IMG/VR virus record: IMGVR_UViG_3300013006_000118
Coordinates: 1-25,681 of that record
Reading direction: 5' to 3' (one strand)
DNA: 25,681 bases
DNA from: a virus
Shown: positions 374 to 24,833 of the stretch, piece after piece
Numbering within the stretch: position 1 is the stretch's first letter
Layout of the letters: the number at the start of each line of letters is the position of its first letter
Position numbers and translations under genes: made by a program
The notes under the pieces: model-generated
What the model saw: the letters and a program-made list of their open reading frames with translations, nothing else
What the model was told of the DNA's origin: nothing
The model's database searches: none

Positions 374-1765
374 TTGAACCCCACCCCGACCCCCAGCAGC
401 GTGCCGCTTGCCAAGATCCGGCCGGGCGATAACCCTCGCCGATATTTCGACCCGAAGAAGCACGAGGATCTCGTTGCCGGCATCCGCCAGCGCGGTCTGC
501 TTCAGCCGCTGCTGCTCCGCCCCGCACCCGACGCCGCCGACATCTTCCTCATCGTTGCCGGTGGTCGCCGCTACCGCGCGGCCATGGAGGTGTTCGGCAC
601 CGATGGGGAGGTGCCGGCCATCGTCCGCGATATGACCGAGCAGGAAGCGCTCGAGGCCGCGATCGATGAGAACGACAATCGGGCGGACGCTTCCGAAACC
701 GAGCAGGCCGACGCCGCGGTCCGCGTGCTTGCCGCTTGCCAAGATGATCGTGCCGAGGCGGCGCGGCGGCTGGGCTGGTCGACGAGCAAGCTCGATCGAC
801 GCCTGGCGCTCGCCGAGCTTTCCGACACGGTCAAGGTCGCGCTGGACGAGCGGCGCATAAAGGTCGGCCACGCCGAGCTGCTCGCGGCCGTGCCGAAGGA
901 TAAGCAGGAGCGTGCCCTTGAGAACATCCTGACCGCCGGGCTCGACGTGGGCCAGACCCGCGCAGCGCTGATGCGAATGACGCAGGACCTCGGCGCTGCG
1001 GCTTTCGACAAGACCGATTGCACGACCTGCCCTTACAACTCGGCGTCCCAGCGCGCGCTGTTCGAGACGCATGTCGACGATGGGCACTGCACCAGCCCGG
1101 GGTGCTTCCAGCTCAAGGTCGAAGGGCACGAGGCAGCGAAGAGGGAAGCGGCTGAGCGCGAGGCTGAGGTAGCGAACACCGCGGCGCCGGCGGTCGAGCA
1201 GGTTGCGGCGCCGAGCACACCGGCTCCGGCGCCTGCTCCAGCGGCAGCGGCCAAACCGGCCCCCAGCGCGAGCGCGTCCAAGACCAACGTCACGGCCAAG
1301 ACGATTGCGGTGCGAGCGCGCACCGCTCGCGAAGCGGCATGGCGCAGCGCAGTGAGCCGTGCGCTCATCGGCGACTTGCATCTGAACGAAAAGTCACAGC
1401 TAGGGCTCCGTGCCTTCGCCTGCTCGGTCATCACGCTTGGCGACGACTTCACCCACGTTGCCACGCTGGCCCGGGCGCTCGAGGTGGACCTCCGCGATAC
1501 CTGGGTCGTCGACAAGGCTTTCCTCGACCGCTTCGACAAGGACGAGCTGAAGATCATCGCCATGGAGTGCGGCTTGGTCGCCCACATGGGGGAGAAGGTC
1601 TTCGCGCGCCTGCTCAAGTCCCGGACGACGGACATCATCGCCGGGATGCTGAAGGCGACCGGCTTCGACTGGTCGAGGCGCTTGCCGAGCTCGATGACGC
1701 TCGACGGGAAGTACGGCGCGCCGCCGGCACCACCGGTCGTCGAGGCCGAACCGGCCGCCGCCTAA
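374..1765 (+). CDS. PRTRC system ParB-family protein
   Basis: This 463-aa ParB/Spo0J-family protein is the first member of the PRTRC cassette. Residues about 8-100 form the ParB N-terminal domain, with NPRRYFD near residue 20 and VAGGRRYRA near 62-70, a variant of the GERR motif that binds CTP in ParB proteins. A helix-turn-helix region follows (about 125-165, AARRLGWSTSKLDRRLA). A Cys cluster, CTTCPYN...HCTSPGC (about 217-245), could bind zinc and is seen in this subfamily as I recall it. An Ala/Pro-rich linker (about 270-310) leads to a helical C-terminal domain. Translation probably starts at TTG 374. No ParA gene is adjacent, so a classical plasmid partition role is not shown. Family assignment rests on the domain plus the six other PRTRC genes downstream. 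Confidence 0.9.
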   Translation: MNPTPTPSSVPLAKIRPGDNPRRYFDPKKHEDLVAGIRQRGLLQPLLLRPAPDAADIFLIVAGGRRYRAAMEVFGTDGEVPAIVRDMTEQEALEAAIDENDNRADASETEQADAAVRVLAACQDDRAEAARRLGWSTSKLDRRLALAELSDTVKVALDERRIKVGHAELLAAVPKDKQERALENILTAGLDVGQTRAALMRMTQDLGAAAFDKTDCTTCPYNSASQRALFETHVDDGHCTSPGCFQLKVEGHEAAKREAAEREAEVANTAAPAVEQVAAPSTPAPAPAPAAAAKPAPSASASKTNVTAKTIAVRARTAREAAWRSAVSRALIGDLHLNEKSQLGLRAFACSVITLGDDFTHVATLARALEVDLRDTWVVDKAFLDRFDKDELKIIAMECGLVAHMGEKVFARLLKSRTTDIIAGMLKATGFDWSRRLPSSMTLDGKYGAPPAPPVVEAEPAAA

Positions 1766-1792
1766 CCAAGCTCCAGAGACAAGGACCACACC

Positions 1793-2209
1793 ATGCTGAT
1801 CACCAGCCTCACGCCGCTGCTCGCCCGCTACTCGCTCGGCCTCGACCTCGTGGCCGGGCCCGACGGGGCAGTTACCCTGACTATCATCCCGCGCAAGGCG
1901 GAGGGCAGTTCGCACAAGCCGGGCGCGGACGAGCTGCGCCCCATCTCCATTACCGCGCCCGCCGAGGAGATCGACGCGGAGCTGGCGAAGGGTGAGGAAG
2001 GCGCGCTCGGGAAGCTGATCGTCACCCGCAAGGCGCTGGCCGACCAGCTCGCGGAGCAGCTGCAGGCGACCGAGTCCGCCAAGGCGGCCGCGAAGCCCAA
2101 GCCGCCGGCAGGAAAGGCGCCGACCCCCGCACCCGCGGCCAAGCCCGAATCCAAGGCCACCCCGCCGGCCGCCCAGGCAGGAGCGGGCGAGCCCGCACCC
2201 CTCTGGTGA
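1793..2209 (+). CDS. PRTRC system protein E
   Basis: This is a 138-aa protein between the ParB-family gene and protein C, the usual place for PRTRC protein E. The N-terminal 85 residues are compact, with an LRPISITAPAEEIDAEL segment typical of the family. The C-terminal 50 residues are a low-complexity Ala/Pro/Lys tail, probably disordered. There is no signal peptide or membrane segment. A weak AAGGA lies 8 nt before the ATG. The molecular role of protein E is unknown. Identification rests on gene order and the N-terminal pattern. Confidence 0.85.
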   Translation: MLITSLTPLLARYSLGLDLVAGPDGAVTLTIIPRKAEGSSHKPGADELRPISITAPAEEIDAELAKGEEGALGKLIVTRKALADQLAEQLQATESAKAAAKPKPPAGKAPTPAPAAKPESKATPPAAQAGAGEPAPLW

Positions 2210-2244
2210 CCGGCGCGACCGGCACCACCCTCCAGGAGACGACC

Positions 2245-2451
2245 ATGCAGATCAACGAACTCACCCGCGTCTATCGGTACGACGGCATCGACCTTCCGGT
2301 CCCGCCGCACCTCGCCAACGACCCGCAGGGCCTGCGCGCCTATCACGCCACGCTCTACCCGGCGATCACCACCGCCGAGGCCGTCGACGCCGGCGTGGTG
2401 AATGGCGCGCTGGTCACCGAATACCGCCGCGCGGTCGGCACTAAGGGCTGA
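2245..2451 (+). CDS. PRTRC system protein C (ubiquitin-like, terminal Gly)
   Basis: This is a 68-aa protein. The start is ATG 2245, set by AGGAGAC 5 nt upstream; an upstream in-frame ATG at 2206 overlaps the gene E stop region and has no such site. The N-terminal pattern VYRYDGIDLPVPP followed by a helix and LYPAITTAEA is the PRTRC C signature, which from memory falls in the prokaryotic ubiquitin-like (Prok_Ub) beta-grasp family. The protein ends in VGTKG, so Gly68 is the last residue, as a conjugatable ubiquitin-like protein needs without processing. An E1-like, an E2-like and a JAMM protease gene lie in the same operon. Family membership is firm; actual conjugation is inference. Confidence 0.88.
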   Translation: MQINELTRVYRYDGIDLPVPPHLANDPQGLRAYHATLYPAITTAEAVDAGVVNGALVTEYRRAVGTKG

Positions 2452-2517
2452 CCATGCCCTCGGGAACGAAGGCGGCAATTCCAGCCGCTCCCCGCAAGAC
2501 GCTCCTCGAATGGATCG

Positions 2518-3648
2518 ATGAAGACGATGGCGACACGACCGGCGGACCGCCCCCGTGCGGAGCGAAAGACCAAGCACTCCACGCGCGGATCCTCACCACA
2601 GAGGGTACCGAGAGCGAACCGCTCCAGCCGCCTCCCGGCCTTCGGCTCGCGCCCCTCGGTTGAACTGGCCGGCCGGGCGGTCGCGATATCGCGCGATGTG
2701 CCGTGGTGCTTCGACAGCGCGCCGCTCGCGCCGCACCACAAGGTCATCGGCCGTTGGGCTGCATCGCGCGCGGCAAGCGAAGACCGCTTCACCCGGGCAG
2801 AGGCGCGGCGGCATATCGAGCGCGTCTTCAACCGCGCGGTGTTGGAGATCCTCAGGCCGTTCAAGCTCGCGGAGCTCCGGACGGTGGTCCTGCTCGGCAG
2901 TGAGGAACGCCCCCCTGCGATCGCCATCATCTGCGACACCATTGGCCAGATCGAGCTCGGCTGGATCGAGGAGACTAGCGGCCTGCTGTCTGCGGTGTTC
3001 GCCAAGCCTGACGGGCGTGTCGCGCCCGCAAGTTGGGGGGCAGCCGCTTATGCCGCGCTCACTGGCACGCTCGGCAATGTGCTCCCGATCTTCAACTATC
3101 AGGACCTCATCGAGGAGTTCTCGAACTACTATTGGGATGGGGAGACCGATGATGTCGCGGCCTCGAAGGCGCTCATTGAATTCCATGGCATGGATCCAGA
3201 TGAAGTCGATGAGGAGACACTTCCGTCGGCGGTGAATGGCAAGCGCCCTCCCTGGATGCTCGCGGAGAACGCCGCGCTGATCCAGCACTTGCCGACAGGC
3301 CTACGCGCTCGAATCCGCAGGCTGCGCAAAGCGCACAAGGCGTTCATGCGCGACGGGCTTTCCCGCGCCGCCTGGCTCTTCGATTTCGATGCGCTGATCG
3401 AATATGCGCCCGATTACGAGGATCGCGCGCACCTGCCGGGCCTGACCCTGGTGCCAGCTGACAAATTCGGCCGCGAGCTCGACGAGATGGGGCGGTGGGG
3501 CATGGAGCAGGGCTTCATGGACATCGCCGGCCTCTGCCCGCTGGGCGACCCGAACCAGATCGATGCGTGGTTCGACTCATTGCGGCTCGGCGCCGAGGTC
3601 CTGCTCGCCGCCCAAGATCTCATCCAATCCGACCCCACCAACGACTGA
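2518..3648 (+). CDS. PRTRC system protein F
   Basis: This 376-aa protein sits between C and B, the usual slot for PRTRC F, and its length fits. The first 50 residues are Arg/Pro/Ser-rich and probably disordered; the rest is a soluble globular protein with no membrane segment and a very acidic middle (about 200-245). ATG 2518 is the first start in this frame after the gene C stop, but it has no good Shine-Dalgarno, and a downstream start such as ATG 2527 or GTG 2698 is possible. A second reading frame is open over 2454-2663, but its third-position G+C is lower (about 71% against 81% here). The function is unknown. Confidence 0.78.
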   Translation: MKTMATRPADRPRAERKTKHSTRGSSPQRVPRANRSSRLPAFGSRPSVELAGRAVAISRDVPWCFDSAPLAPHHKVIGRWAASRAASEDRFTRAEARRHIERVFNRAVLEILRPFKLAELRTVVLLGSEERPPAIAIICDTIGQIELGWIEETSGLLSAVFAKPDGRVAPASWGAAAYAALTGTLGNVLPIFNYQDLIEEFSNYYWDGETDDVAASKALIEFHGMDPDEVDEETLPSAVNGKRPPWMLAENAALIQHLPTGLRARIRRLRKAHKAFMRDGLSRAAWLFDFDALIEYAPDYEDRAHLPGLTLVPADKFGRELDEMGRWGMEQGFMDIAGLCPLGDPNQIDAWFDSLRLGAEVLLAAQDLIQSDPTND

Positions 3649-3656
3649 GGCCGCAC

Positions 3657-4427
3657 ATGTTCGCCCACACCACCCAGTTTGAAGCGACGGCGGGAGATCT
3701 GCCGTTGACGAACGCGATCCTCCTTTACCGAGGAGCTGCGAGGGCAGGTGCCCCCGCCTTTGCCAGCCTCCACCCGGTCGATGACCAGGACGGCCAGCCG
3801 ACGATCGGCGCCGGGGCTCCACTCACCCGCGCACATCTCCGGCAGTGGACCGCGGCCCTCGGGCGGACCGCGAAGCCCGAGCTGCTTCCCGACAATGTGC
3901 TCGTCGCGCACCCCGACATGCTCGCGTGGTGGGTGCCGGAACAAGTGCGGTCGGCCTTCTTCGCGCTCTCGAGGCCATCCGCCGACCTCAAGGCGCTGAA
4001 GGAGCGGACGACGCTGCCGTTGCCGTACCCCGCGCACTTGTTCATCGCCACGCGGACCCGCCTTGGCGTCTTTGCCCTGGCGGAGAACAGGCGTCCAACC
4101 GCCGACACGGTCGCCCTATATTCCCCGGTGCTGAACGTCTTCATCGAAGGGCACCTCTGCTGGGGCAACATCGCAAAGCCGAAGGCCCTTACCATCTCGG
4201 CGATGGCGGAGTTCGAGCGGGCGGTGTTCGACTCGTGGTCGACGCACGCCAATCCCGGGCAGGAAAACTCGGTCACCGGGAAGGGCGGACTGGTCCGCCT
4301 CTGGGATGACCTCGCAGCGCGCAAGGCGAAGCGGTTCCCAGTCAAGCGCTTGAAGCCCTTCGGTTCCCGGTTGAAAGGGGCCAATCCGATCACGGTGGGC
4401 CAGCTGATCGCGGGGGCTACGCGATGA
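3657..4427 (+). CDS. PRTRC system protein B (E2-like)
   Basis: This is a 256-aa protein. ATG 3657 is preceded by TGAGG at good spacing. It is recognised by its slot and by the central block around 124-171: YPAHLFIAT, LGVFAL, LYSPVLNVF, then EGHLCWGN. From memory PRTRC B belongs to the prokaryotic E2 family D fold, where the segment after the beta-sheet carries the active Cys; Cys168 in HLCWGN is the obvious candidate here. The C-terminus is basic. The stop overlaps the start of protein A (ATGA), implying translational coupling. If the E2 reading is right, it would accept the ubiquitin-like protein C from the ThiF-family protein. Activity is not shown by sequence alone. Confidence 0.85.
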   Translation: MFAHTTQFEATAGDLPLTNAILLYRGAARAGAPAFASLHPVDDQDGQPTIGAGAPLTRAHLRQWTAALGRTAKPELLPDNVLVAHPDMLAWWVPEQVRSAFFALSRPSADLKALKERTTLPLPYPAHLFIATRTRLGVFALAENRRPTADTVALYSPVLNVFIEGHLCWGNIAKPKALTISAMAEFERAVFDSWSTHANPGQENSVTGKGGLVRLWDDLAARKAKRFPVKRLKPFGSRLKGANPITVGQLIAGATR

Positions 4428-5083
4428 TGGAGGCGCTTGCCGACGATCCGACCGCGGCCGCGATCCTCGCCACGATCCCCTGCTATCCGGTGCCTCCGAC
4501 CGGCCGATCGCCGGGCATCGACGCGCTTCGCGCCGCTCGCGCCGGCCATGGCCTCGCCATCGGCCAGGACGGCGTGATGCTGGTGCTGCGCCGCCCCTGG
4601 CTGGCGCTTGATGCGCGGTTGGCGACGCCGCTGCCGGCTTATCTGCCCTTCGGGAGCGTCGGCCGGCCCGGCGCAATCCTGCGCTGCGGACTGATCCCCG
4701 CTGAGCTCCTCGATCGCATCGTCGATCACTTCGCCGCCGCGCTCCCCAATGAGGCGGCCGCCTTCGTCATCTGGAACGAGGAGACCCGAGTGTTCGCGGT
4801 TGAGTTTCCCGACATCGGCGAAGCGACGCCGTCGCGGCTGGTCTACCGCCCGCCGGTCCTCGCGCCTGGCTGGCATATCGTCTGTGACGTCCATAGCCAT
4901 GGGAATGGCCGCGCATACTTCAGCAGCACGGACGACGCTGACGACGCGCATTCGACCAAAATCGCGGTGGTGATCGGCCAGCTCGCGCATGAGGGCGGCC
5001 CCGAGTTGGTGGGCCGCATCTGTGCTGGCGGCATGTTCATCATGATGCCCCGCAGCCCCTTCGCCGGAGACTATCGTGCCTGA
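4424..5083 (+). CDS. PRTRC system protein A (JAB/JAMM metalloprotease)
   Basis: This is a 219-aa protein. Its C-terminal half carries a complete JAMM zinc-protease motif, H157-S-H159-x7-S167-x2-D170, with HSHGNG and FSSTDD easily visible. A candidate general-acid Glu lies upstream in ALPNEAAAF (E110). The N-terminal 90 residues form a separate domain with no recognised motif. JAMM enzymes cleave isopeptide or C-terminal peptide bonds of ubiquitin-like proteins, so here it could remove protein C from targets. It overlaps B by 4 nt and the ThiF gene by 8 nt. All metal ligands are present, so it is probably active. Confidence 0.9.
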   Translation: MMEALADDPTAAAILATIPCYPVPPTGRSPGIDALRAARAGHGLAIGQDGVMLVLRRPWLALDARLATPLPAYLPFGSVGRPGAILRCGLIPAELLDRIVDHFAAALPNEAAAFVIWNEETRVFAVEFPDIGEATPSRLVYRPPVLAPGWHIVCDVHSHGNGRAYFSSTDDADDAHSTKIAVVIGQLAHEGGPELVGRICAGGMFIMMPRSPFAGDYRA

Positions 5084-5849
5084 CCAGTCGAATCGCCATT
5101 TCCTGAGCCGCGCGCTCGACGGCCGCGCCATCGATGTCCTCCTCGTCGGCTGCGGCGGGAACGGGGCTCAAATGCTGATGGGGCTCGCGGCGCTGGACAC
5201 CGCAATGCGCGCGATCTCATCGCGGGCGCTGAACGTCACGGTCGTCGACGATGATATCGTGACCGAGGCGAACCTGGGCCGTCAGCCATTCTATCGCTGC
5301 GACCTCGGCAACTCGAAGGCGCGAACGCTCACCGAGCGGATCAACCTTGCCCATGGTCTGGCCTGGCGGGCAGTCCATGGGCGCGCGCCCGATGACATCG
5401 GAGTCGACGGGATCGATCTGCTCATCACCTGCGTGGACACCGCCTCGGCACGCCGGGCGATCGGCGCGGCCCTGGGGTATACCGAGCGATGCCCCGCCTA
5501 CTGGCTGGATCTGGGCAACCGCGCCACCGACGGGCAGTTCGTGATTGGAAACCCGAGGGAGTGGGCCGGCGACGGGCCGGGCCGTCTCCCGACCGTGCTC
5601 GAGCATTTCCCCGAGCTGGCGGACGAGAGCGTGCCCGAGGACGATGCGCCCAGCTGCTCGGTCGCCGAGGCGCTCGAGCGGCAATCCCTGTTCGTCAATA
5701 GGGTGGTGGCCAGCAGCGCGCTCGCGCTGCTGTTCGACCTGCTCGGCCGCGGCTCCATCGGTCACGCTGGCGCCTTCATCAATCTGGCGAGCGGCCATGC
5801 GGTGCCGATCGCGCTGCCGGCTAGGGCGGCAGAGAAGGCGAGCGCATGA
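5076..5849 (+). CDS. PRTRC system ThiF-family (E1-like) protein
   Basis: This is a 257-aa adenylyltransferase of the ThiF/MoeB/E1 superfamily. The GTG 5076 start is preceded by GGAGA. The nucleotide-binding loop is VGCGGNGAQM (G25-x-G-G-x-G30). VVDDDIV and NLGRQ (66-70) supply the acidic residue and Arg expected at the ATP site, with K81 after them. D121 lies in TCVDT, the second acidic position of the fold. There is no CxxC zinc knuckle pair as in MoeB. Cys194 in PSCSVAEAL, after the crossover region, is the best candidate for a catalytic thioester Cys. It would adenylate the C-terminal Gly of protein C. It closes the seven-gene PRTRC set. Confidence 0.9.
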   Translation: MPDQSNRHFLSRALDGRAIDVLLVGCGGNGAQMLMGLAALDTAMRAISSRALNVTVVDDDIVTEANLGRQPFYRCDLGNSKARTLTERINLAHGLAWRAVHGRAPDDIGVDGIDLLITCVDTASARRAIGAALGYTERCPAYWLDLGNRATDGQFVIGNPREWAGDGPGRLPTVLEHFPELADESVPEDDAPSCSVAEALERQSLFVNRVVASSALALLFDLLGRGSIGHAGAFINLASGHAVPIALPARAAEKASA

Positions 5850-6055
5850 CGCAGACGCGCGAGCAACTCGCGGCTGAGATTGCCGCAGCGATCGGCGCGG
5901 CCGTGCTCGGTGCCAAGGCCATCGATCCGGACAAGGTCCGCGCAGCGTGGCGCTCACACCTTCCGGTTCCGACCAGCGACGAGATCGCGAGGGCTTTGAA
6001 AAGCCTCGGCTGGCGTCGAACCAGTGGCGGCTCCTTCAAGGCACCCGGCGTATGA
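5846..6055 (+). CDS. small hypothetical protein (69 aa)
   Basis: This ORF is translationally coupled on both sides: its ATG overlaps the ThiF stop (ATGA) and its TGA overlaps the MT-A70 start (ATGA). The product is a basic, helical protein, with an Ala-rich helix in the first 25 residues and a segment TSDEIARALKSLGWRR that could be a short helix-turn-helix. There are no Cys residues and no membrane segment. Because of its position it is probably expressed with both the PRTRC genes and the methyltransferase. It may be a DNA-binding partner, but I do not recognise a family. Confidence 0.72.
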   Translation: MTQTREQLAAEIAAAIGAAVLGAKAIDPDKVRAAWRSHLPVPTSDEIARALKSLGWRRTSGGSFKAPGV

Positions 6056-6609
6056 CCTGGCCCTTCGGCGAACTCGGCATGTTCGGCTATCGCTTCCTCC
6101 TGATCGACTTCCCGTGGGACTTCGAGGGTGGCGGCGACCGAAACGCGCGCAATCACTATCCCTGCATGTCGCCGGAGGAGGGCGCGCGCTTGCCGGTGGG
6201 CCAGCTCGCCGGGCGCGATTGCGGCCTTGGACTATGGGTGACCGATCCGTTCCTCGAGAAGGGGATCTGGCTGATGCGCCAGTGGGGCTTCGACTATGTG
6301 TCGGTGCTCTTCAACTGGGCGAAGACAACGAAGACCGGGAAATGGCATTTCGGCACCGGCTACGGCACGCGCGCGAACCCCGAGCTTTGCCTCCTCGGCA
6401 TGACCGGGAACCTCGGTCGGCCGAAGGACCGCGCCGTGCGGCGCCTGCTGGTGGAGCCGGTGCGGGAACACAGCCGCAAGCCGGATCGCGTCCACGCCGA
6501 TATCGAGCGGCTATGGGACGGCCCATATGCAGAGTTGTTCGCGCGATCGCGCCGGGCGGGCTGGGACGCCTGGGGCAACGAAGTCGGGAAGTTCGGAGAG
6601 GCGGCATGA
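6052..6609 (+). CDS. MT-A70 family adenine-N6 methyltransferase
   Basis: This is a 185-aa protein. LLIDFPWDF (16-24) corresponds to the catalytic DPPW motif of MT-A70 enzymes, here as DFPW with Phe replacing the first Pro. It is followed by the usual HYPCMSPEE and a Gly-poor beta/alpha core ending in an Asn-Pro-Glu segment (TRANPELCLLG) and HSRKPDRVH, a conserved MT-A70 C-terminal pattern. The likely role is SAM-dependent N6 methylation of adenine in DNA without a partner nuclease, as in many phages, perhaps to evade host restriction. ATG 6052 overlaps the previous stop. The DFPW change is unusual, so activity is likely but not certain. Confidence 0.88.
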   Translation: MTWPFGELGMFGYRFLLIDFPWDFEGGGDRNARNHYPCMSPEEGARLPVGQLAGRDCGLGLWVTDPFLEKGIWLMRQWGFDYVSVLFNWAKTTKTGKWHFGTGYGTRANPELCLLGMTGNLGRPKDRAVRRLLVEPVREHSRKPDRVHADIERLWDGPYAELFARSRRAGWDAWGNEVGKFGEAA

Positions 6610-13263: not shown

Positions 13264-13854
13264 TCAGCTCTCCGGTTCAGCAGGGGGATCGCCGGCGCCA
13301 GGCGCGCCCGGATAGCCGGCGGTGATGTCGATTTCGTCGATGGCGGCAACAGTGGCGCCCGCAGACAGTGCGTCGTCCAAGGCTCTGCGCACGCCGCGCA
13401 GGGCGTTGTCGCAAAGCCCGCTGAAGGCCGCGACGCCAAGCCCGAGCGCGATCGTCTGGTCGGCGTCGATGGTCGTTTCCTGCCCGGCCTCGTCGTCGAA
13501 CGTGAAGGAGAACGGCAAACCCTCGCCCTTCATGAGGGTGGCCATCTGGACGGCGCCGGCGATGGTCAGCCGGCTTTCTACGTCCATCTTCGCCACGACG
13601 GCGCGCTCGGCGAAAACCCCCCAGACCGGAAGAGGCGCGTTCCGGCGCCGCTCCCGATATGCCTGCGCTGCTTGCCAGCGAGCATCTCGCGCTCGCTGCG
13701 GACTCGCCACCCATTCGCCGCCAACTAGCGCCAGATTATCCACGTTGCTGCCATCGGGCAGCTCCGGTCCGATCTGGGTCCAGTTCTCGTCGTAGCCGTT
13801 GAGACTCTCCACACACTGGCGGTCGCCAGTGGAGTTGTGCTGGATCAGGATCAT
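13264..13854 (-). CDS. DUF4376-type tail protein
   Basis: This is a 196-aa protein. The start at ATG 13854 overlaps the end of the 1200-aa tail gene (ATGA); an in-frame GTG at 13860 is also possible. A helical RWQAAQAYRERR segment leads to KMDVESRLTIAGAV, an Asp/Ala-rich region and a Pro/Ala tail, matching the phage DUF4376 pattern found beside tail fibres. Its role is unknown; it may be a structural or assembly component. Confidence 0.72.
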   Translation of the reverse strand: MILIQHNSTGDRQCVESLNGYDENWTQIGPELPDGSNVDNLALVGGEWVASPQRARDARWQAAQAYRERRRNAPLPVWGVFAERAVVAKMDVESRLTIAGAVQMATLMKGEGLPFSFTFDDEAGQETTIDADQTIALGLGVAAFSGLCDNALRGVRRALDDALSAGATVAAIDEIDITAGYPGAPGAGDPPAEPES

Positions 13855-16800
13855 GCCCACGCCACCGCCATTTCGCCTGTTACTGTTACAGTCACACCGC
13901 CGTTCACCGTCTTTCGGACCAGCACCTGCACGTCGATCGTCGCGTCGGCCGGGATCGAGCCCGACGACAGCGATCCAGAGATGTCGACGGAACCCAGGTC
14001 ACTCGCAGTCGCGATGTTCCCGGTCGCTTCGCTACCGGTGAAGTCGGTCCAGGTGCCTCCGTTGATGCGATACTGCGCCTTGGCGACGCAGGTCGCGCTT
14101 CCGGACACCACACCGTAGCTGACCGTCGCGCTGAACTGGATGCCGGCACCGGCAGAAGTCGGCATCCCGGCGATCGAGCCGGAGACCTGATAGACGTTCG
14201 TGTTGAAGGTGTTGGAGATCGGGCCGGTCTTCGAATACGCGGCCGAGCCCTGCTTGTTCTTGGAGACGCTCACGGCGAGATCGTAGTCCTGCCCGCCAAA
14301 TGCCGCTCGGAAGGTGAAGGAACCGCTGTCGATCGTGCAGCTCGTGATCGCCCAAGCGCCAGCGGAGTCGATGGTTGCGGTGATCCCGGTCGGACTCGAG
14401 CCCTGCGCAGAATAGGTGACGCCGGTGGCGATCACGGCCGACCCCTGCAGGAGCTTGAGCGTCCCAATTGCGTTGGTTAGGGCCCCCGATTTGAGGGTTC
14501 CATTCGCGAAGGCGTCCAGCTGAACCGCAGGCTTGCTCAGCACCGGGGTAATCCCAGGGGCACCCGCAGCGCCGTCTTCGCCGACCACGCGCACCGCAGC
14601 CGACCACGTTGCCCCGCCGTCAGTCGATTGCCGCTGATACAGGTCCCCGGGCGTGGCGGTGTTGTGCCAAGCCGTTGAGCCATCGACCGACCATTGGGTC
14701 AGCAGCGTGGACGCCGTGATCGCCACATCAAGCGCGGCATAGGCGGCATAGAAGTCAGTCCACTTGGTCTTGAGCGCGGCGCCCCCGCCCGTACCGAGAG
14801 GACTGTCCTGCGATTTGTCCGAATAGGCGGGAGAAATGGCCGCGATCGCGGTGCCCAGCGTGGTGTACTTAGAGGTCAGCGCCGCCCGTAGCGACGAGAC
14901 GCCGCCGAAGGCCGCGGCCCGCGCGTCGAGCGCCGCGAACTTCGCCTGACCTTCGAGCCACTCCCGCTCAAACTGAGGCTTCTCACCTCGCGACAGGATG
15001 TCGTCATCGACGATGGTCGCGATCGCGGCGGTGCTGGCGGCAATGGCGGAGGCCTCCGCCGACGTCGCACCATAGGTAGCAACGAAATCCCAGGTGGTGC
15101 CGCTCCATCGGCTCAAGGTCTTGGTGCTAGGCTTGTACCAAAGATCGCCGACGCCCTCGGCGGTCGGCGTCGATTCCTGGTTGAAGGTTTCGACCTTGCC
15201 GTCCGCGGTCGCCTGCGCGCCGGCTGCGTCGAGCAGTGCCTGGGCGATCCGCTGGTCCGGTGCCGGGGCCCATGGTGGATAGACGATTGCTCCGTACCCG
15301 GGGAAGGTCACGACCGTGCCGGCGTACGATATTCGGCCGTCGCCAGCGATCCGCTTGTACTCGAGGTTCCCCGCGTCCTCATCGACCCAGCGGTCGTTCA
15401 CGCTGCTTTCCGCGGCGGTTGGTGGCGTCGCCTGGTAGAAGATCGTGCTTTTGCCGGCCGCGAGTTCGCTCGCTGCTTCGGCCGCCCCGGTCGCCAAAGT
15501 ATAGCGCGACTGCGCATCCGAGAGCGAGATGGTGTAGGCGGTGACGTCGGCCAGATCCTGCAGCGCGCGGCCGTAGACGTTGAACGAGGCCAGCTTGATG
15601 TAGAGCGTGTCACCGACGTTGAGGTCGGTGTAGTTGAGCTTGAAGATTGCGTCATCGATCCGGACGAAGGGCTGTCCGATCGCGTGCGAGATCGCCGCGC
15701 TGCCGTGCAGGCCACGCCGCAGAGGGCTCAGGTTGTAGCGGTGCGCGCCGGTCAACGTCGCGTTCTGGTAGGAGATCAGCTCGTTGCCGACGAGCGCCAG
15801 CGTCGCGCCGGCGTTCATGTCCGCGGCGGAGCCCCCGGTCAGCTCGCCCAGGCTGACGCTCAGGTTGACCGCGAGCATGTTCACATTGTCGGGGTCGGCG
15901 TGGAACGGCAGCGCCGCGGTGATGGTCCCGTACCGAGCTGGTCCCTCGATTCGGCCCGCGCGGCTGTAATTGCTCCCGTCCGCGCTGATCCAGACCTCGG
16001 CGCCGCCCCATGTGGCCGACGTCGATGCCGCAGCAATCCAGACCTCCGGATCGAACCCGGTCAGCTCGACCGGGGGAACGAACAGTGCCGGCACCGATGC
16101 CGCGCCGGGCGCAACGTCGGTGTTCGGCACGTAGCCGTCGCTCGAGTGCGAACTGTACTGGGCGGCCGAGGCGGTCCCGGCATCGACACCCTCGCAGGTG
16201 AAGCTCAGAAGGCCGTCCTCGTCTTCCTCGATCTCGGTGATCCGCACCAGAACTCGATCGAGCTTCAGCTCGTCGGTGGTCGTCGTGAGGGTGAGGAGGT
16301 CCATCGGCTCCAGGAGCACGAAGTTCCAGGGCAGGCGGTGATTGTAGGTCTCGCGCACATAGAGGGTGCGCTGAAGCAGCAGCTGGGCGCTCTTCGCGGC
16401 GATCGCGCCGTCGCAGATGCAATGCAGGGTCGTCGGATCCTGCTTGCGCGCGCCGAACTCGACGATGTTGGCGAGATCCTGGGCGGGCTGGATCGCGATG
16501 TTGTAGGCGTTCGAGCGGTCGAGATATTCGACCTGCACGATGTTGTAGGCGTCCGACTGGTCCTTGATCGTCTGGACGACCGGCGCCTCGCCGTCCTCGG
16601 CGATGAAGTCGTCCTCGTTCAGCCCATACCGGGGCGTCAGGTCCGGGGTCCAGGTGACACCGTTCGCGGTCGCAGCGGCATCGCCGTAAGGCTTGATCTT
16701 GAGCACGCCCTCCGACCAGAACGCGGCCGAGTTGGTGGCGAGCGTCCACTCGCCAAGATAGGAGGCAGCGCTCGCCTGGGACTCAAGCACCGGCGACAGC

Positions 16801-17453
16801 AGCAGATTGTTGGCCCGGCAATAGGCCGACCAGTCGCTGAGGTCGCCGAGCAGGCCGGCGGCCCAGCCGGGCACGCCATGCGAGGTGCTCTGCAGGAAGT
16901 CGGTGACGATGTCCTTGGGATCCGCATCGCAGACACCGCCGCCCAGCTGGATCGCGAAGTCGACCTCGAAGGAATGGTTAGCCAGCGTCGCGCTGTCGCC
17001 GAGGGCGTAGTCCTGCGCGTAGACATAGGCGATGCCGGAATAGGCCATCGCCTGCGCGGGGAAATAGGACTGCAGGTAGCCCCAGACTGGCTGATCGACG
17101 GCGCCATTCGCCAGCGAGAGCCCCGCCTGGGCCAGCGCGGAGGTACCGCCGGCCACGAACACGGACGTGTCCTTGTAGACGGTGCGGACGCCGCCGAGCT
17201 GGCCCTCGCTGAGCGCCATGATCACCGAGGCGGTGTAGGTGTAGGTGGTGCTCTTCGACGCGCCGCCCATGCCCTTGCCGCCGGCCGACTGCTTCGTGGT
17301 GTGCGCGATCGCCTTGAAGGCGTTGTACCAGATCAGGTTGCACTTGATCCGGCCGCGGCCCCAGCCGATCGTCAGCGGAAGCCCGAGCGTCGAGGTCTGG
17401 ACCGCGATCTGATTGAGCCTCGCTGCGCTGGTCGAGGTCGTCTTGCCGCCCAA
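13851..17453 (-). CDS. tail tip / central fibre protein (1200 aa)
   Basis: This is the large distal-tail protein. The probable start is TTG 17453, preceded by GGAGATCTGACC. The N-terminal half resembles the Phage-tail_3 hub region, including CDADPKDIVTDFL, an EDDFI segment, and the Cys pair LHCICDG at about 340. Fibronectin-like or tip-attachment modules follow. Around residues 740-850 there is a GDLWYKP / SRWSGTTWDF pattern and a helical stretch seen in host-specificity proteins of siphoviruses. The C-terminal 350 residues are beta-rich (KNKQGSAAYSKTG) and probably bind receptor. It follows NlpC/P60, as in rcGTA, but lacks the N-terminal TIM-barrel hydrolase of the GTA protein as far as I can see. 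Confidence 0.82.
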   Translation of the reverse strand: MGGKTTSTSAARLNQIAVQTSTLGLPLTIGWGRGRIKCNLIWYNAFKAIAHTTKQSAGGKGMGGASKSTTYTYTASVIMALSEGQLGGVRTVYKDTSVFVAGGTSALAQAGLSLANGAVDQPVWGYLQSYFPAQAMAYSGIAYVYAQDYALGDSATLANHSFEVDFAIQLGGGVCDADPKDIVTDFLQSTSHGVPGWAAGLLGDLSDWSAYCRANNLLLSPVLESQASAASYLGEWTLATNSAAFWSEGVLKIKPYGDAAATANGVTWTPDLTPRYGLNEDDFIAEDGEAPVVQTIKDQSDAYNIVQVEYLDRSNAYNIAIQPAQDLANIVEFGARKQDPTTLHCICDGAIAAKSAQLLLQRTLYVRETYNHRLPWNFVLLEPMDLLTLTTTTDELKLDRVLVRITEIEEDEDGLLSFTCEGVDAGTASAAQYSSHSSDGYVPNTDVAPGAASVPALFVPPVELTGFDPEVWIAAASTSATWGGAEVWISADGSNYSRAGRIEGPARYGTITAALPFHADPDNVNMLAVNLSVSLGELTGGSAADMNAGATLALVGNELISYQNATLTGAHRYNLSPLRRGLHGSAAISHAIGQPFVRIDDAIFKLNYTDLNVGDTLYIKLASFNVYGRALQDLADVTAYTISLSDAQSRYTLATGAAEAASELAAGKSTIFYQATPPTAAESSVNDRWVDEDAGNLEYKRIAGDGRISYAGTVVTFPGYGAIVYPPWAPAPDQRIAQALLDAAGAQATADGKVETFNQESTPTAEGVGDLWYKPSTKTLSRWSGTTWDFVATYGATSAEASAIAASTAAIATIVDDDILSRGEKPQFEREWLEGQAKFAALDARAAAFGGVSSLRAALTSKYTTLGTAIAAISPAYSDKSQDSPLGTGGGAALKTKWTDFYAAYAALDVAITASTLLTQWSVDGSTAWHNTATPGDLYQRQSTDGGATWSAAVRVVGEDGAAGAPGITPVLSKPAVQLDAFANGTLKSGALTNAIGTLKLLQGSAVIATGVTYSAQGSSPTGITATIDSAGAWAITSCTIDSGSFTFRAAFGGQDYDLAVSVSKNKQGSAAYSKTGPISNTFNTNVYQVSGSIAGMPTSAGAGIQFSATVSYGVVSGSATCVAKAQYRINGGTWTDFTGSEATGNIATASDLGSVDISGSLSSGSIPADATIDVQVLVRKTVNGGVTVTVTGEMAVAWA

Positions 17454-17455
17454 GG

Positions 17456-17899
17456 TCAGATCTCCGGAAACAGCGTGAAGAAGCGGACCGGGCGGGAGCG
17501 GAGCTCTTCGTCCCGGTCGATGTTGGCCCGGGTGACGCCGCCGCCGATGATGACGGCGTGGATCACTTCGGGCAGGTCGATGATGATGGCGCCGTGCGAG
17601 AAGCAGCGGCCGTATTTCCAGATCGCGAAATCGCCAGGCTCGGCTTGGGCTCGATCGATCTCGCGGGCGTACCGCGTCACCCAGCCCAAGTACTGCTCCT
17701 CATCGCGGTGAAGCATCCACTGGGGCGAATACTCCGGGTCCAGGTGAGGGATCAGGCCGACGAATTCGTAGACCGCCGCGGGATATTGAGCGCAGTCGAC
17801 GCCCACCCCCTTCACGCGGGCGCGGTGGTGATACGGCGTGCGCTCCCAGGTCAGCGCCTCCCGGACCACGTCTGCCCGGGTGACGCTGACAAGCGTCAT
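17456..17899 (-). CDS. NlpC/P60 family cell-wall peptidase, tail-associated
   Basis: This is a 147-aa protein. GVDCAQ places catalytic Cys36 and SHGAI places His102 of the NlpC/P60 fold. It is of the size of rcGTA gp14-type peptidases, which ride the tail tip and cut peptidoglycan during DNA entry. The upstream gene overlaps it by 4 nt, and it lies 2 nt from the tail-tip protein. The canonical GxDCxG is slightly altered (GVDCAQ, with Gln at the last position). Confidence 0.88.
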   Translation of the reverse strand: MTLVSVTRADVVREALTWERTPYHHRARVKGVGVDCAQYPAAVYEFVGLIPHLDPEYSPQWMLHRDEEQYLGWVTRYAREIDRAQAEPGDFAIWKYGRCFSHGAIIIDLPEVIHAVIIGGGVTRANIDRDEELRSRPVRFFTLFPEI

Positions 17900-18756
17900 C
17901 CGAAGGCGGTCTCAGGAACCGGCACGAAAGGCGTCGATTTCAGCCGGCCGAGGTTGTTGAAGCGGGCGATGCAGCGCGCGCGGGTGAGGTCGCAGCCCGG
18001 GTACGCGATGAAGGTGTCACCAGCGGCCGGGGAAGCGGGCAGGGACCGGATGAGGGCGAAATTGCCGGCGCCGTCGTTCGATCGCACGGTCGCGGTCAGG
18101 CCGTTGTTGGCCCCCGACGTGAATACGATCCGGCCCTGAGCAAAGTCATTGGCCGCGGTGGAAAGTGTCGAGGCGAACGCCGCCGCGGTGGGCGTGCCGG
18201 CGACAGCGCCCGACACGGCGAACAATGCCGGGTTCAGTCCACAGCCGGCGTCGTAGACCGTATGCACGCAGGCGGTCTGGTACAGGTTCGCCGGCATGTT
18301 GACGTTGAGCAGCACTGCCCAGGAGGAAATGGTGACGCTGGCGGTCGAGCCCTTGATGCCATCCACGGACGTCACGCGCCCGGCGAACCGCAGCACTGTG
18401 CCGGTCGCCGGATCTCCCCACTTCGGAAAGAAGGCACGTTCCAGGCGCACGGTTGCGCCGTCCAGCCCGCGCTTGCGGATGAACTGGATCACCGGCACGC
18501 CGTTGATCAGATCGTTCGAATCGGCGGTGACCTCCATGGGGAGGCTGGCCACCTCGAGCCCGACCTTCTCGCTGATAGGCCCACGCTTGATCGCGGGGCC
18601 GAGCAGGAAGCGCTGAGAATTCGCCGTGATCTCCAGGTCTGCTCCCGACCAGCGCACCACGGCGCCGCCGTTGAGCGTGATCGTCCAGATATCCGCCATC
18701 TCGAAGTTTTCGCCACTGTTCAGCAGCTCGATCAGGGCAGGGTTGGCGGCCTTCAT
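17896..18756 (-). CDS. DUF2163 / BR0599-type baseplate hub protein
   Basis: This is a 286-aa protein. ATG 18756 shares one base with the preceding stop (TGATG). The N-terminal two thirds (DLEITANSQRFLLGP, RGPISEKVGLEV) match the DUF2163 hub domain. The C-terminus has the conserved YPGCDLTRARCIARFNN motif with its Cys pair, followed by the TPFVPVPE ending. In rcGTA this protein is gp13, a hub component linking distal tail and peptidase. Gene order here (DUF2460, DUF2163, NlpC) is the same. Confidence 0.88.
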   Translation of the reverse strand: MKAANPALIELLNSGENFEMADIWTITLNGGAVVRWSGADLEITANSQRFLLGPAIKRGPISEKVGLEVASLPMEVTADSNDLINGVPVIQFIRKRGLDGATVRLERAFFPKWGDPATGTVLRFAGRVTSVDGIKGSTASVTISSWAVLLNVNMPANLYQTACVHTVYDAGCGLNPALFAVSGAVAGTPTAAAFASTLSTAANDFAQGRIVFTSGANNGLTATVRSNDGAGNFALIRSLPASPAAGDTFIAYPGCDLTRARCIARFNNLGRLKSTPFVPVPETAFG

Positions 18757-19397
18757 CAGCGTTTCACCGAGATCAGTTCGAGGCCCGACAAGGCCCAGAG
18801 CTTCGCCATCAGCTGCTCGGGGTCGAGTTGGTCCTGGTTGAAGCGAACGAGGAACATGAACTGCCCGGACCAGGTGAGGACCTGGCCGGAGGCTGGCGCC
18901 GCGGTGAAGGTGATCGCCCCGCGCGGGCCGAGCGTGAACGCCGTGGTGTCCGTGGCGCCGACCGACACTTTCGGCGTCCCCAAGACCGAGCGCACCGGCT
19001 CGAGGAAGGTCATTGCCCCAACACCGCCTTGGCGGATCAGCTGGAAGGTCTTGCTGGCCCCGTCGCCGACGCCGAAGGGGCAGTTCGTCGCCAGATTGTC
19101 GTCCGGGTCGAAATACGAGAACTGTATCGCCCTGCCGGCGTGCGAATTGAAGAACCCGAACAGGCGGGCGAGCTCCGGCGCAGCGACGTTGTCGCGAAGC
19201 ACCTCGTACTTCAGCTTGAACAGCCACTTCGGATAGGACCAGTTCTGCCGGCTGCGCTCGCGGCCGGAGGTCGCGGTGGCGATCGCCGTCGACCACATGG
19301 GCGACTTGCTGGATAGGAAGCCTTGCCCAGGCAGGAAGGGGAATACCGACCCGTCGTTCGTCAGATCCGGCAGGATCGGCGTGTACGGTGCGGTCAT
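18756..19397 (-). CDS. DUF2460 distal tail protein
   Basis: This is a 213-aa protein. The start at ATG 19397 follows GGAGG about 11 nt upstream. The N-terminal half carries FKLKYEVLRDN, an AGRAIQFSYFDP segment and FGVGDG, all typical of DUF2460 (rcGTA gp12, a distal tail protein forming the ring below the tube). The second half is a beta-rich domain with TAAPASGQVLTWSG. It is the first gene of the downstream sub-block of the tail operon after the + strand insert. Confidence 0.85.
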   Translation of the reverse strand: MTAPYTPILPDLTNDGSVFPFLPGQGFLSSKSPMWSTAIATATSGRERSRQNWSYPKWLFKLKYEVLRDNVAAPELARLFGFFNSHAGRAIQFSYFDPDDNLATNCPFGVGDGASKTFQLIRQGGVGAMTFLEPVRSVLGTPKVSVGATDTTAFTLGPRGAITFTAAPASGQVLTWSGQFMFLVRFNQDQLDPEQLMAKLWALSGLELISVKR

Positions 19398-19450
19398 ACA
19401 GTTCTATTCCTCCATTGCGCGCGGTCGCCCGGGTCGGGACATTGCCGACG

Positions 19451-19750
19451 ATGCGACTCGGACCGGAATCGATGGGCCAACTCCCCCCTGGCGAGGAGGA
19501 TTACGTTGAGCGCGCCATTGCCGCCTGGCGGGCGTCTGGTGCTGTTTCTTATGTGGAGATCCTGGGGGCTTGCCCAGAATCGTACGCGTATGAAGGCATG
19601 CTCTTCCCCTTGGACAAGCCGCCGGTATTGCCCTTCCCCGGTTGCACAAGGTCACCGTGCTGCGGGTGCGCGCTCATGCCCATTGCAGATGACGAGGACG
19701 GTGAGCACGCTGTCCGCCGCCTCGTTGAAAACGGCGATGCCCAAGGCTAA
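19451..19750 (+). CDS. hypothetical Cys-rich protein, antisense insert gene 1
   Basis: This + strand ORF lies opposite the tail operon. A downstream segment (PGCTRSPCCGCALMP) has four Cys in 9 residues (C-x4-C-C-x-C), suggesting metal binding. The start is uncertain: GTG 19388 (overlapping the DUF2460 start region), ATG 19451 or ATG 19472 are possible, with no strong Shine-Dalgarno for any. It is followed 22 nt later by a second + strand gene. Together they look like a moron unit. No family is recognised. Confidence 0.5.
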   Translation: MRLGPESMGQLPPGEEDYVERAIAAWRASGAVSYVEILGACPESYAYEGMLFPLDKPPVLPFPGCTRSPCCGCALMPIADDEDGEHAVRRLVENGDAQG

Positions 19751-19772
19751 CCTACTGGCCGGAGGGACATCA

Positions 19773-20069
19773 ATGCGACTCAATCTTCTCTATGGCGGCG
19801 CCTTCTTCTGCGCCCTGCTTGCGCCGCTGTTTGCCTATCGCGGGCTCACCATGGATGTCGCTGTCGCGACGCCCATCACTCCATTTTCTGAGGGCGGCTC
19901 CGTCGCGAATTTGCAGCTGCTATTCACTCAGCAAGCTTGCATCGCTGCTGCGATTGGCTTCGCGGTCGTCGGAGCAATTATGTTCGGCTGTGGTGCGATC
20001 GTACAGAGTCTCGAAAAGACGGCCAGCCGAGAGAATTCCGCTGACCCTTCAGAAGGCTCTAAAGGGTAA
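19773..20069 (+). CDS. two-helix membrane protein, antisense insert gene 2
   Basis: This is a 98-aa protein. ATG 19773 has a good GGAGG site 7 nt upstream. There are two likely membrane helices, residues about 4-22 (LLYGGAFFCALLAPLFAY) and 55-78 (ACIAAAIGFAVVGAIMF). The C-terminus is acidic and Ser-rich. Its stop overlaps the 3' end of the convergent tape-measure gene by 11 nt. Codon usage is less G+C-rich than the tail genes around it. It may be a superinfection-exclusion or other moron membrane protein; that is inference. Confidence 0.7.
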   Translation: MRLNLLYGGAFFCALLAPLFAYRGLTMDVAVATPITPFSEGGSVANLQLLFTQQACIAAAIGFAVVGAIMFGCGAIVQSLEKTASRENSADPSEGSKG

Positions 20070-23000
20070 TTCCGGTCCCCACGAACGCGCCCTCACGGTG
20101 GGCTTTAATAAGCGCCTTCGCGATGGATGAGCGATTGGACATGATCTGCTCGTGGGTCATCCCGCGAGCGGTGTGGTCGTGGTAGTTGAGCGTCATGCCG
20201 CTCGGCGTATCGTTTGCCGCCTCGGGAGCGTTGGTGTTGGCCGCTGGCAGGGCCGAGGCAAGCGAACCACTCAGATTGTCAGGCAGACCGAGGCTCGGGA
20301 TCGAGGCAAAAAGGGCCATGATATTGCGCCACCCTCCAGCTTCCGCGGCAGGGATAATAGTTTCGCCCTTGTGAACGAACGCCAACTGGTCCTCGGAGAG
20401 GTTCTGTGCGCCCTGGGCATAAGGCGCGACGGCAAGCATTCCCATGAAACTCATCGTGCTGGCCACAGCCCCGGCGGCGGCCGCAGGCGCAAGGGCAGGA
20501 CCCACGACGGGAATGGCGGCGGTTGAGGCGAAGGCATTCGCACCCGCAACCGCGGCGGCGGAGGTAATCTCTGCCGCCTTCGCGGCCTTGTCCATGGCGC
20601 CGCCAAGGATGACGGCGGTCAGTTTCGTCGTCAGCCACTTCTCAATAATGCTCGCCAGCACGTTCCCGACGATGGACGCCATACCGGTATAGAGACCGCG
20701 GATGGTGGCGACAAAACCCTGCTGCAAGGTGAGCAGGCGACCGATCTGCTGTCCCCACAGCTGCGACACCGAGGCGATGGCCTGACGCTGGATTTGCGTC
20801 CGAGCAAGGGTCGCTTGGCGATCGATCTGGGTGAGCCGGGTCTGGTGCTGGGAACGGAGCTGCTCGACCTGCTTGTCTAGAGCCGCGGCGGCTGCGAGAT
20901 CGCCCGGACGCACGTTGCTCCTGCTTGTGTCCAGCCGGGCCATAGTCGCAGCGTATCGCTTGTTCTCACCGTCGCGCAGAATCGCGAGTAGCTGCGCCTC
21001 GGTGCGCAGGCCCAGGTCCGTCCTCAGCCGCGCGACGTCCTCTTCGGCATCGAGCTGGCGGAGGCGGATTTCCTCCACGCGCCGGGCGTTCTCTTCCTCG
21101 ATGCGGCGCCTCTCCTCCGCACCCTCGCGAAGGATTTGCGTCAGTTGCCGCTGGGCGGCCTGATACTGGGTGGACTGGGCACCATACTTGCGGAGCACGA
21201 ACTCGGCTTCCTCCGTCGCGATCCGCTTGCGCTCTTCGGTGTTGCCCTTGGCCTCGTCGAGCTCCGTCTGGTACTTCGCGATTTGCTCGTCGATGGACTG
21301 CTTGGTCAGTTCCGAATGCGCGGCGAGATAAGCCTTGAGGACCGACAGGCGCTCCTCCTTCGACATCTTCTCGCCATCGAGGATCTTCTGCCAATAGTCG
21401 GCCTCGGCCTTGGCGGAATATTCGATCGCGGAGCCTTGCGCATCCTGCGCCTGGGCCCAGGCGAGCTTCAGCTCCTCAAGATCCTTTTCCCAATCCCCGA
21501 AGCGTGATTTCGCCGGCGTGTTGGTGCCGCCACCACTGGAGATGCCGCTGGTGGTCCCGAAGCCACTCGCGATCTCAGGAGCCTTGATCGCCGTCTCCAT
21601 GACGGCGATCTGCTGCTGAAACGACAGCGCGGTGGCGTTCGCGGAATTGAGGTTGGCCTCAGCGCGGGCCTTGGCCGGATAGGTCGCCTGCGCGCCATAG
21701 GAGCCGCCTAAGCCTGGCTGTGCCTTCGCCCTGTCGTAATCATCTGAAGCGGTCTGGTAGTTGCCGAGGGCCTCGCGATACTTGCCCTGTGCTTCGGCGG
21801 CCATGGTGCGCAGGTTGACAAGGCGGGCCTGCGCCTCGGCGAGCAGCGCTTCTCGGACCTTGCCATGCGAGGTGGCGAGACGGTCGGCTAGGTCGGCCGA
21901 TTTCTTGTACTCATCTTGCGCGCCGGCTTCTGCGCGGGCGAACTCCTCAGAAGCATGCGCGGCATCGCCGGTGGCAGCGACCAGCGCGATCATCCCGACG
22001 GTCAGGACTGCGAGCGCGATTCCTACAGGGCCGCCCAGCGCCGCCAACAGGGTCCGGCCGGTGGTAGCCGCGATGAGCCCCAGAGCTTCCATCGTGGTCG
22101 CGGCACCGATCGCTCGCGCCTGCATCGCAAAGATGGCGGTTTCGGCCAGCGCCGTCGATGCGGCTGCCGCGACCATGCCTCGTACAAAATCCACGGCCAT
22201 CAGCGTGGCGAGCAGGCTGGCGATCGCCATCAACGTCTGGATGTTCTCCGCGAGCGCCACCACAATCGGGCTAAGGGCGGTGACGACCGCCATGGCAACC
22301 TGGCCCGACGCGACAAGCATGTCGAAGACCTGCTTCACCGTACCGCCGGCGTGGTACGAATCGACCATCGCTTTTACGAGGCCGTTGAAGCCTTCCACCG
22401 CCTGGGTGAGCAGCGGGGCGAGGGCTTCGGTTAGCGCGTTCTCGAGACCACGCATGGCGAGCGTGTTATCGTCCCAGGCGTCGGCAAGATCGTTGCCGGC
22501 CGCTACTGCTTGATCCGAGACGACGCCGTAGGTTGCCAGCTTGCCATTGAGCTCGCTGAGCTGGTCCTGCGACAGCGAGAGGATCGGGATCAGCTCGGCA
22601 CCGGTGCGGCCGAAAAGCTGCATCGCGAGCGCAACCTTGCTCGGCCCGTCCGCCATCTCGGCGAATTTGGCCATAGCGGTCTGGAATAGCTCCATCTGCG
22701 TGTAGGAGCCGTTGAGGTCGACGCCGATCTGGCTGAAGGCCGCCGCCGCTTCCTTGCCGCCACCCTTCGCAGCCGCGAAGGACTTGTCGAGCTTAGCCAT
22801 CGCGCCGGCCATGGTGTCGACGTTGCTCTGGGTCACATCCGCGATCGCCCCCAGCCGCTGCACGTCGGCGGTTGCGATGCCGAGGCGCTGAGAAAGCAGC
22901 TGCGTCTTTTCGGCAGCGTCGCCCATGCGCTGCGAGAAGTCGATCGCCTCTCGGCCGCTGAGGTAGACCAGCATGCCCTTGATGGCGCCGGTGACCGTAT

Positions 23001-23256: not shown

Positions 23257-23271
23257 GGTGCCTCCCGGGGT

Positions 23272-23652
23272 TCATATCTGGGCGAGCTTGGCGAGGATGG
23301 CCTTCGACGCCTCAAGGGTGTCTGCGCCGGCGGCGACGGCATGATCCGCCGCGAGAGCGGCGATCGAGGGGGCATTCGGCGGGGGCGCAAGTTCGACGCG
23401 ATCGTCGGCGTCAGATTCGCCGGTGAGCTTGGCGCCCCACGCTGAGGCCAGCATTGCCACCGCGATGTGGACCGGTGGACCGCACGCCTTCCAGTGACGA
23501 CGGAGATGTTCGACATCGTTGAGATGCCAATGCTCTTCGATCGCCCGCTTGGATCCTCCCTCGATGCCGGCAGCGATCAGCTCGAAGAGGAGGGTTAGGA
23601 GGCTGCGCTCGAGTCCACCGGCAGTTCCTCCACCGCTACCGGTGCGGGCTCT
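23272..23652 (-). CDS. tail assembly chaperone T part, expressed by -1 frameshift
   Basis: This frame has no ATG, GTG or TTG before GTG 23460, yet it is open and protein-like well upstream of it. It contains LERSLLTLLFELIAAGIEGG and HWHLNDVEHLRRHW. It is in the -1 frame relative to the upstream gene G (23595-24038) and ends just before the tape-measure gene. This is the G/G-T arrangement of lambda-like tail assembly chaperones, so the likely product is a G-T fusion of about 255 residues. Boundaries assume slippage at the GGGGGAA run. Confidence 0.7.
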   Translation of the reverse strand, partial: RARTGSGGGTAGGLERSLLTLLFELIAAGIEGGSKRAIEEHWHLNDVEHLRRHWKACGPPVHIAVAMLASAWGAKLTGESDADDRVELAPPPNAPSIAALAADHAVAAGADTLEASKAILAKLAQI

Positions 23653-24038: not shown

Positions 24039-24040
24039 GA

Positions 24041-24796: not shown

Positions 24797-24833
24797 GGTT
24801 CTTTCTCCAGATAAGCCGGCGATGCCGGGGGTG

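Follow-up and report, generated by a model that had tools for sequence, protein, structure and literature searches.

The window analysed here is a viral DNA stretch of 25,681 bases that makes up the entire IMG/VR record IMGVR_UViG_3300013006_000118, with both ends coinciding with the record ends. It represents the left-hand portion of a temperate siphovirus with a sphingomonad-type host, and its plus strand carries, between positions 374 and 5849, a standard PRTRC operon encoding a ParB-family protein followed by E, C, F, B, A and ThiF (Table 1). A preliminary description made from the sequence alone had reported this seven-gene cassette, and all of its genes were found in the order and on the strand described. 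The operon is compact: B and A overlap by 1 base, A and ThiF overlap by 8, and the remaining gaps measure 8–66 bases. The tail module occupies the minus strand in a block that also includes holin and lysozyme genes, as assigned with PHROGs and Pfam. Neither head genes nor an integrase were found in the window, which is a fragment of a phage.

Comparison with the NCBIfam cut-offs placed five of the seven window proteins above them (ParB, E, B, A and ThiF) and two below, namely F and C (41.5 bits for C against a cut-off of 45.95). Despite these low scores, the assignment of C and F is supported by their operon position, by the Pfam match of C to Prok_Ub and by the 49–85% identity that they share with the C and F proteins encoded in roughly 20 further PRTRC operons on viral contigs. 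Among the PRTRC proteins, a strong match in PHROGs was obtained for ParB only.

Table 1. Features of the window and examples of an additional gene in other loci (the latter with locus names)
Feature	Position	Strand	Basis
tRNA-Pro (TGG) with CCA, complete gene at contig edge	6–82	+	ARAGORN
PRTRC ParB-family protein, TTG start	374–1765	+	TIGR03734, 342.6 bits (cut-off 278.6); ParB_N and HTH_ParB
PRTRC protein E	1793–2209	+	TIGR03741, 60.9 bits (cut-off 37.95)
PRTRC protein C, putative ubiquitin-like (Ubl) modifier of 68 residues ending ...VGTKG (Gly68)	2245–2451	+	Prok_Ub PF14454, 1.6e-18
PRTRC protein F, mixed alpha/beta	2518–3648	+	TIGR03742, weak, 22.7 bits (below cut-off of 58.4)
PRTRC protein B, E2-like; Pro157, Asn160, Cys168	3657–4427	+	Prok-E2_D, 5.5e-30; TIGR03737, 172.6 bits
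PRTRC protein A, DUF2016 and Prok-JAB (JAMM peptidase, HSH...SSTD)	4427–5083	+	Pfam; TIGR03735, 146.9 bits
PRTRC ThiF, single-domain, E1-like, 257 residues; GxGGxG, Arg69, Lys81, Asp121, Cys194	5076–5849	+	TIGR03736, 263 bits; Pfam ThiF, 4.6e-13
MT-A70 family DNA methyltransferase	6052–6609	+	PF05063, 1.8e-20; phrog_359
Siphovirus tail module: gpJ-like, NlpC-type, tail assembly, tape measure, Neck1/tail completion	13851–25681	-	PHROGs and Pfam
96-residue protein with Cys pairs (examples)	L172:6192-6479; L002:25640-25927		

Carriage by temperate phages and exchange of the cassette

A profile-like scan of IMG/VR for relatives of the PRTRC ThiF yielded at least 133 stretches, the best 80 of which were kept, and the operon was examined in 88 distinct viral loci. 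PRTRC is common in temperate phages, being present in more than 100 viral contigs with several head and tail types. An HK97-type portal was matched in 34 of 62 records (the PRTRC-bearing phages and the window), a GpA-type terminase in 11 further records of the same set, and contig G013 gives a third kind of match. Additionally, a tyrosine integrase was matched in 50 of 65 viral records, a set that includes four PRTRC-less relatives. The terminase families PF03237 and phrog_38 were set aside as markers, having matched few of these phages; the portal family PF04860 and the GpA family PF05876 served better.

The preliminary description had placed the operon and the tail genes on a single element, which is borne out by G012, a 64.8-kb contig. 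It contains tail genes as in the window (46–75% identity for most) and additionally holds a terminase and a portal. The same PRTRC operon lies there in the same convergent layout relative to the tail genes, which answers the concern that a junction between positions 5849 and 7149 of the window might join two different elements. PRTRC was found together with capsid and integrase genes in G017 (62.9 kb), which encodes terminase, portal, protease, capsid, tape measure, baseplate and DnaB, with the integrase directly upstream of the PRTRC ParB; its 127-bp terminal repeat is as expected for a complete circularly permuted or circular genome. From the gene content of G012 and G017 it follows that PRTRC belongs to the phage.

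Besides these many viral contigs, the gene set was identified in a cultured temperate tailed phage. Burkholderia phage BgVeeders33 (locus L002), cultured on Burkholderia gladioli and circular, encodes ThiF together with E, C, F, B and A. Each of the six scores above its NCBIfam cut-off, and their annotations read "hypothetical" or "dinucleotide-utilizing enzyme". On the minus strand of this phage, a tyrosine integrase missing from the GenBank annotation was observed at 31776–32204, where it adjoins an excisionase-like gene. The idea that PRTRC replaces integration in BgVeeders33, which would make it a plasmid-prophage, was dropped after a profile search had found this integrase. Among 50,697 records of GenBank phages, clear PRTRC ThiF matches were obtained only in BgVeeders33 and one faecal contig, a scarcity that is perhaps due to cultured phages being mostly virulent. 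Among plasmids, matches were obtained in 376 records out of 72,556.

Contigs with major capsid proteins 98–100% identical to that of BgVeeders33 were checked for PRTRC, which is present in G024 and absent from G023, G025, G026 and G027. A 23-kb stretch that takes in the tail genes is 93% identical between G026 and BgVeeders33. The two then diverge at the PRTRC operon; in its position, G026 has an integrase together with ParB-like and AlpA-type genes. PRTRC is a swappable cassette. Since phages with 93–95% identical head and tail genes occur both with and without it, the virion genes do not need PRTRC.

This exchange bears on the possibility that C is attached to the tail or capsid proteins of the phage itself at assembly. 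The occurrence of PRTRC alongside tail genes in a single element such as G012 counts in favour of such self-modification, and the bacterial BilABCD (Bil) pathway is said, in work of 2024 by Hor and by Chambers, to tag a tail protein. The phages that lack PRTRC despite their nearly identical capsid proteins and late regions argue against it, as do the association of the operon with Mu-like myovirus tails, GTA-like (gene transfer agent-like) siphovirus tails and several packaging types, and its occurrence on plasmids, which have no virions. We consider self-modification improbable, and the targets of PRTRC are very probably proteins other than those of the phage's own virion. In the earlier suggestion of a system acting on virion, host or rival proteins, the virion part is not supported, given the 93–95% identical late genes without PRTRC and the unrelated packaging and tail types.

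The contig edge of the window carries a tRNA-Pro gene, and the PRTRC ParB starts 290 bases past it. Positions 1–86 are 96.5% identical to the tRNA-Pro locus of viral contig G015, in which a different integrase follows closely after the 3' end of the tRNA. The tRNA-Pro gene is a probable host attachment site, and the window would then begin at the left edge of a prophage.

Active sites and the C-terminal tail of protein C

Conservation was examined in 174 ThiF, 171 B and 143 A proteins drawn from phage, plasmid and genome loci. The four glycines of GxGGxG, Asp58, Asn66, Arg69, Lys81, Asp121 and Cys194 are invariant in all 174 ThiF proteins, and Pro157, Asn160 and Cys168 in all 171 B proteins, of which 167 also keep the downstream His197. 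The B motif P-x2-N-x4-G-x-[hydrophobic]-C, intact in 156 of 171, has the same spacing as HPN...G-x-[IV]-C, the motif found in E2 enzymes of eukaryotes. The JAMM motif of A, H-[ST]-H-x(6-9)-S-x2-D, is present in 143 of 143 proteins. The C-terminal glycine of C is kept in nearly all relatives, Gly68 being invariant among aligned C proteins that lack a tail beyond it. A profile search of the PDB with ThiF gave ubiquitin E1 enzymes as top matches, and Cap2 was matched too. C itself is predicted to be a beta-grasp Ubl, judging from its Pfam Prok_Ub match and the analysis of Iyer et al. 2006 (PMC1779556).

The residues named in the preliminary description, Gly68 of C (gene start 2245), Cys168 of B (gene start 3657), Cys194 of ThiF and the JAMM motif of A, all exist, and the Ubl, E2, E1 and JAMM signatures that it read from them proved sound at the residue level. 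These family and active-site signatures suggest that PRTRC is likely a working Ubl conjugation pathway. ThiF and MoeB are homologous, and C could alternatively be a sulfur carrier, thiocarboxylated by ThiF in the manner of ThiS/MoaD and feeding a small-molecule or tRNA reaction. The invariant Cys194 of ThiF, an E2-like partner with an invariant cysteine and a JAMM peptidase, none of which belongs to the ThiS/MoaD pathways, all speak against such a carrier, and sulfur or metabolic genes were not found nearby; we regard it as highly improbable.

The end of C and the presence of A were found to be associated. C genes were scored automatically (n=166) within operons for which only the 10-kb flanks were read, so that A may lie elsewhere in some genomes. 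C proteins with 1 to about 100 residues past the conserved glycine numbered 79, and their operons contained A in 79 of 79 cases. In operons without A, C ends at the glycine in 27 of 27 scored cases, or 28 with L068, which was read by eye. The association has a Fisher's exact p of 3e-9, with kinship ignored. On the ThiF tree, the tail state switches about 9 times and the presence of A about 5 times (at least 4 and at least 1 of these, respectively, on starred branches), and a tailed state without A never arises. In L085 (7194–7568) and L152, C is frameshifted before the C-terminal motif and the other operon genes are intact; this is one frameshifted gene seen twice, it was counted as tailed, and the tally without the pair is 77 of 77.

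A is therefore optional within PRTRC operons. As every tailed C has an A and every A-less operon has a C ending at the glycine, A probably matures C by exposing this residue, and a tail-less C can probably function without A. A comparable step has been reported for BilC, which exposes the C-terminal glycine of BilA (PMC11354881). In Burkholderia-type phages, the extension past the glycine is itself conserved (for instance L002:26515-26901), with about 60 residues and an end resembling IGALFxHYGS. This extension may be a separate functional peptide freed by A.

Protein F and neighbouring genes

In 168 of 168 operons, C and B are separated by an open frame of at least 250 residues. F is the fastest-changing member of the operon, with a mean identity of 23% versus 45% for ThiF. 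Its AlphaFold2 model has a confident core (predicted local distance difference test, pLDDT, 83.5), and a Foldseek search with this model gave no significant match in PDB or BFVD. The universal presence and fast change of F fit a role as a target-recognition factor. Iyer et al. 2006 envisaged an enzyme for the F-type protein (PMC1779556).

Just upstream of E, 36 Burkholderia-type viral loci encode a protein of 96 residues with zinc-ribbon-like cysteine pairs (examples in Table 1). It has no Pfam match and is probably an extra operon member in these loci. Altogether, the protein was observed in L172 and 38 further loci. On the 3' side of the window operon lies an MT-A70 adenine methyltransferase; similar genes were observed near PRTRC in L009, L017 and L020, and thus in some relatives only.

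The operons of plasmids and of sphingomonad phages begin with ParB, and most Burkholderia phage operons are without a PRTRC ParB. A homologue of dnaN, the sliding clamp gene, was observed beside or near PRTRC in L067, L068, L070, L071, L138, L143, L005 and L218. These comprise four plasmid loci (of eight), two viral and two genome loci, about 8 of the 180 loci examined, with Acidobacteria among the carriers. The linkage was rejected as a general feature, being striking in four of eight plasmids and rare elsewhere, and it remains a hint. Such neighbours raise the possibility of replicon maintenance, in which PRTRC would modify partition or replication proteins of the element or host, such as its ParB or the sliding clamp. 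Its support comes from the leading position of ParB in plasmids and sphingomonad phages, the nearby dnaN genes, and the ParB-like gene that takes the PRTRC position in PRTRC-less relatives. The lack of PRTRC ParB in most Burkholderia phage operons and the small share of loci with dnaN speak against it, and we consider replicon maintenance unlikely.

Proposed pathway and comparison with known systems

In the proposed pathway, C would be the modifier. The JAMM protein A would trim any C-terminal extension and expose the terminal glycine, and it may have a second role in taking the tag off again. ThiF would adenylate C and then take it on Cys194 as a thioester; B would receive it on Cys168 and pass it to target proteins, and F is the strongest candidate for a ligase or for a factor that confers target specificity. 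In phages, the cassette is optional and is situated in the early or lysogeny arm near regulation, xis and integrase genes and opposite the late genes. Likely targets would be host or rival-element proteins, or replication and partition proteins, whose tagging would help the element to establish itself or hold its ground. We infer these targets and this benefit from the genomic setting: the early-arm position in BgVeeders33 and the optional carriage favour host takeover or rival exclusion, and ParB and the occasional dnaN favour maintenance. For the whole reading, a Ubl conjugation pathway acting on host or rival-element (or replication and partition) proteins and not on the phage's own virion, we estimate a probability of roughly 0.6. 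A broader proposal is offered tentatively, its chances falling a little short of even: that temperate phages of several host groups run their own complete Ubl machine and turn it on proteins of the host or of competing elements, F being a specificity factor of novel fold and A an optional maturation protease.

A prophage could also use PRTRC for superinfection exclusion, tagging the proteins of rival phages that enter the cell, as Bil does on behalf of its host. The carriers are temperate, the cassette occupies a swappable accessory slot near the integrase, and the four activities are those of Bil. However, the operon of Burkholderia phages lies in the early arm by replication and control genes and not as an isolated moron, and no defence model was matched except through the ThiF domain. 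We regard superinfection exclusion as possible but rather unlikely.

Several points weigh against the proposed conjugation pathway. Its early-region placement is known from few genomes, and related operons are not independent samples. The structure model of B is confident (pLDDT 90), and its Foldseek matches included no solved E2, so that the E2 assignment of B rests on sequence family and motif. Profile searches of the PDB found no relative of C, nor of B or F. PADLOC models run over the operon gave only weak generic ThiF-domain matches to E1–E2 models, and no experimental demonstration of PRTRC conjugation was found among the consulted papers that use the term PRTRC.

PRTRC has hitherto been an annotated but unexplained plasmid cassette, which one paper treats as a plasmid partition-type locus. 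If the proposed pathway is true, phages themselves run Ubl tagging, which in bacteria has so far been linked to defence against phages. BgVeeders33, with its natural PRTRC-minus relatives, offers a small tractable genome for studying the cassette, and the association between A and the C tail provides a simple first biochemical test.

The Ubl toolkit reading is prior art and not new. Iyer, Burroughs and Aravind described C-F-B-A-ThiF in 2006 as a predicted Ubl transfer and processing pathway (PMC1779556, row 6d) and proposed an addiction or anti-invader role; the type 6d carriers that they listed are bacteria, some of them with the genes on mobile elements. The components of type 6d (Prok_Ub, Prok-E2_D, JAB-N with JAB, an E1-like protein and a helical protein) agree with PRTRC C, B, A, ThiF and F, including the downstream histidine of the E2-like protein, whereas the 2006 table contains neither phages nor ParB, and A is optional here. 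Four findings appear to be new: that temperate phages carry PRTRC widely, that one carrier is in culture, that a tailed C is accompanied by A, and that the cassette is exchanged among nearly identical phages.

Plasmid PRTRC loci (TIGR03734–TIGR03742), such as that of Novosphingobium pLA4, have the same seven genes in the same order and orientation, and the pLA4 ThiF is 78% identical to that of the window. They differ in that the window operon is phage-borne and its ParB has 463 residues, compared with 547–645 in seven sampled plasmids. The Cap2/Cap3 pair of the cyclic-oligonucleotide-based antiphage signalling system (CBASS) resembles PRTRC in an E1-like adenylation domain related to ThiF, but PRTRC has no cGAS-like target gene and encodes E1 and E2 as separate genes. 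Bil shares with PRTRC a Ubl, an E2, a JAMM protein that exposes the C-terminal glycine of the Ubl, and an E1 (PMC11354881). The echo of Bil noted in the preliminary description therefore stands for the four activities and fails for the architecture: BilA has two Ubl domains, BilD has two adenylation domains and the E2 belongs to another family, whereas PRTRC combines a single Ubl of 68 residues and a single-domain ThiF of 257 residues with the extra proteins E and F (and ParB).

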